Assembly (NCBI GenBank): GCA_014377305.1 | Contig: JACMPW010000007.1 | Coordinates: 1 to 64,000, forward strand | Source: Candidatus Altimarinota bacterium | GTDB lineage: Bacteria > Patescibacteriota > Gracilibacteria > BD1-5 > UBA2023 | Direction of reading: 5' to 3' | Length of the DNA: 64,000 nucleotides | Part shown: piece by piece, positions 11,815-13,844 of the stretch | How positions within the stretch are numbered: position 1 is the first letter of the stretch | How the letters are laid out: each line of letters begins with the position of its first letter | Program-made: the position numbers and the translations under genes | Notes under the pieces: generated by a model | Databases searched by the model: none | Told to the model about the DNA's origin: nothing | What the model saw: the letters and a program-made list of their open reading frames with translations, nothing else

Positions 11815-11894
11815 AGATATGGGATAGGAAATAAAGTTACCAAATCACTATGTCACAATAGTTTTATTTTTGCAAATATTCTCATCACTTTTCT

Positions 11895-11922
11895 TTGCAT
11901 TTTATTCACTTTCATCTATACT
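11895..11922 (+). promoter_or_regulatory. Promoter of the glyS T-box leader
   Basis: TTGCAT (11895-11900) and TATACT (11917-11922) with a 16-base spacer. It predicts a transcript start near 11929, just ahead of the T-box elements. Confidence 0.55.
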
Positions 11923-11928
11923 CGTATG

Positions 11929-12082
11929 AGTTTGTATCTCTGACGAGCTCGATTGGCACCGAGGGAGGAGAAAAACTACGATAAAGTTGTTCTGAAAATT
12001 CAGAAAACTTGGGTGGAACCGTCCAAAATAATTCACATTATAGGACCCCAAGAAAGTTTAATCTTTTTTGTGGGTCTTTTTT
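11929..12082 (+). ncRNA. T-box riboswitch leader of glycyl-tRNA synthetase
   Basis: The T-box core GGGTGGAACCG lies at 12011-12021. The antiterminator folds well: CTTGGG (12008-12013) pairs with CCCAAG (12047-12052), and GTCC (12021-12024) pairs with GGAC (12043-12046). These helices enclose the UGGAACC bulge that binds the tRNA acceptor end. An overlapping terminator, GACCC...GGGTC (12044-12076) followed by six U, competes with it. A stem III-like TTCTGA/TCAGAA hairpin precedes it. Upstream, a short hairpin CTCG-ATTGGCAC-CGAG exposes GGC (11955-11957), a glycine codon followed by A, as a candidate specifier. Stem I appears very short. The next plus-strand gene is glyS, about 360 bases on. 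From 12083 to 12443 the sequence is AT-rich with no gene I can support. Confidence 0.75.
12044..12082 (+). terminator. T-box regulatory terminator
   Basis: GACCC (12044-12048) and GGGTC (12072-12076), extended by AAGAAAG/CTTTTTT around the loop TTTAAT, then a U tract. It is mutually exclusive with the antiterminator at 12008-12052. Confidence 0.75.
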
Positions 12083-12443
12083 ATTTTTCTATCTTTATCG
12101 TTATGTATAAGCTATCATCTTATTGAAAATTTGGTTCAATTTCTTTTTTTATTGGATTTATAGTATTTAATCTATTTTTTTCTGAAGATATTCTCATGGT
12201 TCCTTCGGGCATAACTATCTCATGACTTGAAAATAATTTACTTTTTATAAATAAATATCTCATAGATATCGTATCGTGATATATCAGTTTTAGTACATAT
12301 GGATGATTACAATTATGGATTGTTCTAATATTCTGATTTTTATTAAATATAGCTCTAATATATTTAGTATTCAGTACTATTGAATATATAGTCAAAGAAA
12401 TCAAGCATTGACCTAAATTTTAATTTTTTTCACTTTCCCATTT

Positions 12444-13844
12444 ATGCCTACTCTCGAAATGTCTACTCTCGTCACCTTTGCAAAAACAAAGGGATTCGTC
12501 TACCAAGGTTCTGAGATCTACGGTGGTCTCGCGAACTCTTGGGACTATGGTCAACTCGGAGCTCTCCTCAAAGAAAATATCAAAAATCTCTGGATAAAAG
12601 AATTTGTCCAGAAACGCAAAGATATGGTACTCCTCGATGCATCGATCATGATGAATCCCAATGTCTGGGTCGCATCTGGTCATGTCGGATCGTTCTCTGA
12701 TCCACTCATGGAGTGTCGTGGATGCAACACTCGTCATCGTGCAGACAAGCTGATTGAGGAGGCACTAGAGAAAAATGCGAGCTTCCCTGTACCAAATAAT
12801 TGGGCAGGAGACAAGACTCCACTCGAAGATCTGAATGTCTATAATAAATCGGGTCATCTCGCTTGTCCGAACTGTGGAGCCAAGAACTGGGGTGAAGTGA
12901 AGCGATTTAATCTTATGCTCTCAACGAGCCAAGGTACTACTGAGGATGCGACAGCACTTGTTTACCTGCGTCCTGAGACCGCTCAGGGAATTTTTGTGAA
13001 CTTCCCGAATATTGCACGCAGTTCCAGGAAAAAAATCCCATTCGGAGTTGCTCAATGTGGTAAAGCATTCCGCAATGAGATCACACCAAAGAACTTCATA
13101 TTCAGAACGAGAGAGTTCGAGCAGATCGAGATCGAGTACTTCTGCAAACCAGGTACTGATGCAGAGACATTCGAGACTTGGCTCGTGGATGAGGGCAAAT
13201 TCTTCACAGATGCACTGGGACTCAAGGCAGATAAAGTCAGATTCGTCGAGATCCCAGCAGAGGGACTGCCTCACTATTCCAAGAGAGCAGGAGACTTTGA
13301 GTATCTCTTTCCATTTGGCTGGGGAGAGATCTCTACTCTCGCTAACAGAACTGACTATGATCTCGGAGCTCATATGAAACACTCTGGAGCGGATCTCTCC
13401 TACTTCGACCCGTATGACAATACCAAGTATCTCCCCTATGTCATCGAACCATCGATCGGACTCTCTCGTCTGACCCTCGCAGCAATGTGTGATGCCTACG
13501 ATGAGATCCCAGGTGAGGAGTGAACATCGAAGGTAGTGATGCGATTTGCCCCTGCGGTTGCTCCGATCAAGGTAGGAGTATTCCCTCTGGTAAAAAAATT
13601 CGCCGAGTCAGCAAACGAGCTCTATGATATCTTGTCAAAAGAATTCATGTGTGAATATGATGAGGCGGGTACAATCGGAAAACGATATCAGCGAGCTGAT
13701 GAGATCGGTATTCCTTTTAGCATATGTGTTGAGCCTGAGAACTATGATCAGTGGCAGGTAACTGTCCGTGATAGAGATAGTGGTGAGCAAGAGATCGTGA
13801 GGATAGATGAATTGGTGCTATGGTTGAAGCAAAAAGGTTGCTAA
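12444..13844 (+). CDS. glyS: Glycyl-tRNA synthetase (alpha2 class II type)
   Basis: A 466-residue enzyme that charges tRNA-Gly, here including whatever tRNA reads UGA. The N-terminus is FVYQGSEIYGGLANSWDYGQLG. Motif 2 (KAFRNEITPKNFIFRTREFEQ) lies near residue 205 and motif 3 (YVIEPSIGLSRL) near 333. The C-terminal anticodon-binding domain starts after an in-frame TGA at 13521-13523 (PGEE-Gly-TSK) and carries FAPAVAPIKVGVFPLVKK. Under the standard code the protein would lose its anticodon-binding domain. The T-box leader upstream implies control by uncharged tRNA-Gly. Confidence 0.95.

Follow-up and report, generated by a model that had tools for sequence, protein, structure and literature searches.

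T-box riboswitches have been described mainly from Gram-positive bacteria. Four classes are distinguished: Class I combines a long Stem I, carrying the interdigitated double T-loop motif (IDTM), with a Stem II; Class II, represented by glyQS, has a long Stem I without Stem II; Class III has a short Stem I with a 5–6-nt apical specifier loop and requires Stem II; and Class IV has a Stem I of intermediate length (PMC10482949). Stem III has been called indispensable in PMC7583486, where Sherwood et al. 2015 is cited for the short or ultrashort Stem I of ileS T-boxes. Here, we describe a leader upstream of glyS, the gene for glycyl-tRNA synthetase (GlyRS), in a 64,000-nucleotide stretch of DNA (the window) from a very small, uncultured Candidatus Altimarinota bacterium. 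With a probability of about 0.93, we read this leader as a transcription-terminating T-box for GlyRS. Its sequence and covariation point to this assignment through a specifier hairpin, an antiterminator, the overlap of the latter with a terminator, the place before glyS, and the match of both codon and discriminator base to tRNA-Gly; tRNA binding, charge sensing and the direction of the response would follow by analogy with known T-boxes.

The leader and its conservation

The elements of the leader are located as follows.

11894–11922, + strand: candidate sigma-70-type promoter (TTTGCA, 17 nt, TATACT), just 5′ of Stem I, 9/12 in a consensus scan
11937–11971, + strand: very short Stem I, lower helix modelled as UCUCU 11937–11941 / GGAGA 11967–11971, with an asymmetric internal loop
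11948–11951 / 11960–11963, + strand: Stem I upper helix CTCG / CGAG, covarying in relatives (two-sided changes in 4/4 pairs)
11955–11957, + strand: GGC specifier, within apical loop ATTGGCAC (11952–11959, 8 nt)
11983–12007, + strand: second hairpin, between Stem I and helix A1, called by sequence with the motif as in PMC7583486, pairs covarying
12008–12013, + strand: 5′ strand CTTGGG of antiterminator helix A1, pairing in 98.5% of cells, two-sided changes in 4/6 pairs
12014–12020, + strand: T-box bulge UGGAACC, invariant in the alignment, its UGGA complementing the UCCA end of tRNA-Gly
12021–12024, + strand: 5′ strand GTCC of antiterminator helix A2, 100% of cells paired, two-sided changes in 3/4 pairs
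12043–12052, + strand: common 3′ strand (A2 GGAC 12043–12046, A1 CCCAAG 12047–12052), doubling as the 5′ arm of the terminator
12043–12077, + strand: intrinsic terminator hairpin with a T tract to 12088, by folding mutually exclusive with the antiterminator

A sequence-only reading of this region had proposed a T-box on glyS, composed of a T-box core, a two-helix antiterminator around the UGGAACC bulge, a U-tailed terminator and a GGC-bearing hairpin, with an unusually short Stem I. All of these elements are present at the level of single bases, the remark on Stem I was right, and the T-box on glyS is supported by anatomy, covariation, wobble within GGN, the match to U73, terminator overlap and conservation. 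The hairpin CTCG[ATTGGCAC]CGAG spans 11948–11963 with GGC inside its loop, and the T tract TTTTTTATTTTT occupies 12077–12088, after the terminator hairpin. The region folds with a z score of −3.3, and the 918-kb genome contains the core GGGTGGNACCG a single time and the reversed pattern not at all. The lower helix of Stem I is an inferred model that rests on the relatives, and it is absent from the minimum free energy fold of the whole window leader; the asymmetric internal loop above it, whose 5′ strand often carries (U)GA and whose 3′ strand often carries (G)GA, is possibly kink-turn (K-turn)-like. The promoter candidate, as a consensus match alone, is by itself not above shuffles; −10-like boxes similarly precede Stem I in relatives.

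The gene glyS is present in 71 of 79 related genomes, from which 70 upstream regions were collected for comparison. A covariance model built from 34 leaders finds the same architecture within about 1.5 kb in 60/70 regions, and six further genomes (G039, G027, G036, G065, G055 and G030) carry the T-box farther upstream, bringing the total to 66/71 glyS-bearing relatives with a homologous leader, directly or across intervening genes. The genes between T-box and glyS, named by eye, are a RidA-like protein and an aldo/keto reductase in G039, a DUF262-like protein in G027, and a dCMP deaminase and a peptidase in G036; they look as if inserted into a T-box-controlled unit. At the level of single loci, the T-box lies well upstream of glyS at L109, L124, L129, L196, L198 and L200, with unrelated genes intervening in the first three. 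A class-wide scan gave a single match in each matching genome.

Covariation was scored over 16 pairs on an unguided MAFFT alignment of the leaders, as the sequence-only reading had advised, and both the antiterminator and the specifier hairpin covary, as indeed do all four helices. Standard pairs fill 91.3% of the pair cells, a figure that favours the model to the extent that the pairs were picked knowing the consensus, and two-sided changes are found in 13/16 pairs. Both sides change in 107 cells against a shuffled mean of 34 (0/500 shuffles), a test that is inflated by the relatedness of the sequences; when the partner is slid by one column, a control that retains this relatedness, pairing drops to 59% or 64%. 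In 46 of the 55 leaders evaluated, terminator and antiterminator compete for sequence, with the terminator 5′ arm overlapping the A1/A2 3′ strand, suggesting that control is exerted on transcription.

In the proposed mechanism, the short specifier hairpin would be transcribed and its apical loop UGGCA would pair with the tRNA-Gly(GCC) anticodon loop. When this tRNA is uncharged, its UCCA end would pair with the bulge UGGA (12014–12017) and hold the A1/A2 antiterminator. The terminator, which needs the antiterminator 3′ strand for its own hairpin, would thereby be blocked, and transcription would reach glyS. Charged tRNA-Gly could not dock, so that the terminator would form and glyS would be switched off.

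Apart from the relatedness that inflates the covariation and Fisher figures, several points weigh against this reading. First, the Rfam T-box model RF00230 matches neither the window, whether at the gathering score or at E up to 10, nor the genome, and it reaches at most 23–33 bits in the relatives against a gathering score of 93. The RF00230 search had been offered as a check on the leader, and it would have misled, given that the element is real. Second, two glyS-bearing genomes (G054 and G064) have no T-box within 5–6 kb of glyS. Third, the terminator is predicted to be more stable than the antiterminator, at about −16 to −17 vs. −11 kcal/mol, which proves nothing; a terminator more stable than the antiterminator is normal for T-boxes. 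Fourth, about 360 bp with a small open reading frame (ORF) lie between the terminator and glyS in the window genome, so that the switch could be circumvented by a promoter within this stretch.

Specifier, tRNA and rival explanations

A loop of the form U-GGN-R is enclosed by a stem in 57/60 leaders, and the 57 assigned hairpins read GGA in 40, GGC in 9, GGU in 5 and GGG in 3 cases. The stem around this loop exceeds that of flank-shuffled controls (59 leaders, Wilcoxon p = 3e-11). The fixed G-G, the free third base, and a flanking U and purine complementing A37 and U33 are what would be expected of a glycine codon pairing with tRNA-Gly. In the window, UGGCA (11954–11958) is complementary to U33-GCC-A37 of tRNA-Gly(GCC), which is present in the genome. 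Both tRNA-Gly species found in the window genome, tRNA-Gly(GCC) and tRNA-Gly(UCC), end in U73-CCA, complementary to the UGGA bulge.

Matches to the covariance model were also found in 24 of 380 sampled genomes of the phylum. With the exception of L135, whose downstream gene has no identification, and of two false positives, the checked class and phylum matches precede either glyS (7 of these outside the class) or thrS (18 leaders), most of them verified with NCBIfam; one of the 18 thrS leaders sits behind a GNAT-like ORF. The two false positives, L153 and L156, were dropped, both being without the core and L156 lying within coding sequence. UGGNR is found in 66/67 glyS leaders vs. 8/18 thrS leaders, where shuffling leads one to expect 7.5, and TACCA in 10/18 thrS leaders (expectation 1.8) vs. 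2/67 glyS leaders; these counts ignore kinship, and a clear ACC is not seen in every thrS leader. With GGN at chance and ACC enriched before thrS, the specifier changes along with the enzyme, and this independently and strongly supports the T-box assignment.

The thrS leaders also bear on the rival explanation that fares best, although we consider it highly improbable, namely that the leader is a T-box whose UGGN hairpin loop is a second site for the acceptor end (NCCA) rather than an anticodon reader. The loop of the window, UGGCACC, equals the bulge consensus UGGNACC, and the anticodon loop of tRNA-Gly contains an xCCA that resembles an acceptor end. However, the fourth base of the loop varies among A, C, U and G, whereas that of the bulge is fixed as the A that matches U73, and the thrS leaders hold UGGNR at chance level with ACC enriched in its stead.

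That the T-box responds to the recoded codon, with tRNA-Gly(UCA) as its effector and glyS coupled to UGA decoding, is more improbable still. This tRNA occurs in the order, and in congeners and other members of the family and order it ends in U73-CCA as well; thus, the specifier alone excludes it. No UGA specifier is found among the 57 assigned hairpins, and GGN mispairs with A36 of the UCA anticodon, so that the specifier would select tRNA-Gly(GCC) or tRNA-Gly(UCC), not tRNA-Gly(UCA). Moreover, neither two search patterns nor a DNA search located tRNA-Gly(UCA) in the window assembly; given its presence in congeners, its gene is probably in sequence that the assembly lacks. The coupling of glyS control to the recoded UGA, which the sequence-only reading had suggested, is thus not supported, as all assigned specifiers are GGN. 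One GlyRS presumably charges all three tRNA-Gly species, leaving only an indirect link between switch and recoding. Within the order, the sequence of tRNA-Gly(UCA) (L241–L247) shows high conservation, with TAACATAA after the acceptor stem in place of the usual TAGCTCA.

A plain intrinsic terminator or attenuator before glyS, controlled by a protein or a leader peptide and resembling a T-box by chance, is equally improbable: the window has a stable terminator and no Rfam T-box, but the invariant UGGAACC, the covariation of two helices, the U-GGN-R loop, and the way in which the leader recurs in front of glyS across the order and, with a changing specifier, in front of glyS or thrS elsewhere all stand against it.

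The glyS gene and the spread of the leader

Two coding features lie downstream of the terminator.

12103–12423, + strand: ORF of 106 codons (code 25, membrane-like) between terminator and glyS, no Pfam match
12444–13844, + strand: glyS, dimeric-type GlyRS of 466 aa with one in-frame TGA, NCBIfam PRK04173 and TIGR00389

The glyS product scores 579 bits against PRK04173 (cut-off 312) and also matches TIGR00389. Its closest named relatives are Candidatus Gracilibacteria (glyS 91–86% identical), and its sole in-frame TGA aligns with GGA in a relative, supporting code 25. The assignment to a code-25 organism, already made from sequence alone, thus agrees with the nearest relatives, with this alignment and with the conserved tRNA-Gly(UCA) of the order. 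The 106-codon ORF would be co-transcribed on terminator readthrough; no insert with a small ORF is present in the congeneric leaders examined. The stretch 12086–12443 is AT-rich, with 23% GC vs. 47% within glyS.

The leader recurs across the order of this bacterium, with similar switches elsewhere in the phylum. RF00230 scores some of the Patescibacterial thrS leaders at up to 59.6 bits (E 2e-10), never reaching 93; the 18 thrS leaders (L130, L133, L136–L138, L140, L141, L144, L145, L147–L152, L154, L155 and L202), all below the Rfam gathering score, often combine an ACC specifier with a UGGA bulge. Outside the Candidate Phyla Radiation (CPR), the GlyRS of Beduini, Oscillospiraceae and Clostridia (L165–L169) are 48–53% identical to that of the window. 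No GGTGGNACC core is present in the upstream sequence examined of the nearest non-CPR GlyRS relatives (Beduini, Oscillospiraceae and others), which gives no support to the idea that enzyme and switch were transferred together.

These leaders extend the T-box to the CPR and are relevant to the question of an ancient origin of T-boxes versus a spread by transfer; no earlier report of a CPR T-box was found in the open-licence literature searched, although one may exist elsewhere. They also reveal a form of T-box to which the standard Rfam model is blind, and provide a rare concrete mechanism of gene regulation in a group from which hardly any regulators are known.

Comparison with known T-box classes

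In contrast to Classes I and II, which have a long Stem I with IDTM and an internal-loop specifier, the window leader places its specifier in an 8-nt apical loop, and its Stem I is too short for an IDTM, the module that binds the tRNA elbow. Nor is a Stem II with S-turn found, as in Class III: about 11 nt separate the modelled Stem I from the pre-Stem III purines, and the relatives have no conserved hairpin in the Stem II position. The motif 5′-RRRxG-Stem III-AA-3′ occurs in most f1 leaders and, with an additional U, in the window, whereas roughly one third of the leaders have AAAAGUAAAA without a clear Stem III, where there may be a mini-hairpin. In leaders such as L022 (with L019, L034 and L040), Stem I and the antiterminator are connected by AAAAGUAAAA. 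None of Classes I–IV combines transcriptional control with a short Stem I, an apical specifier and the absence of Stem II, as the leader described here does.

We put forward, with confidence evenly divided, a new Patescibacteria class of T-box with two tRNA contacts only, in which the apical loop would hold the anticodon and the antiterminator the acceptor end. Neither an elbow contact nor a Stem II clamp would be present, and part of the order would do without Stem III as well. If true, this class would contradict the view that the elbow, Stem II and Stem III modules are needed for transcriptional control. To our knowledge, known transcriptional T-boxes require a long Stem I and known short-Stem-I T-boxes require Stem II, and the class would be the smallest tRNA-sensing switch known. 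Its stripped-down build makes it testable which tRNA contacts a co-transcriptional T-box needs.

The leaders share the antiterminator core with the T-box leader of RF00230. They compare as follows with their two closest described counterparts. First, the B. subtilis glyQS T-box (Class II, PMC10482949) is likewise glycine-specific and transcriptional, sits on a glycyl-tRNA synthetase operon, reads GGC, lacks Stem II, and has the T-box bulge and a terminator/antiterminator switch, whereas the window leader has, as its Stem I, a short hairpin whose apical loop bears the specifier and which has no IDTM. Second, the Nocardia and Mycobacterium ileS T-boxes (Class III, PMC10482949) likewise have a short Stem I without IDTM and an apical-loop specifier, but are translational and isoleucine-specific, need a Stem II with S-turn and have a 5–6-nt loop, whereas the leaders described here are transcriptional and glycine-specific, have no Stem II, and carry the specifier in a loop of about 8–9 nt.
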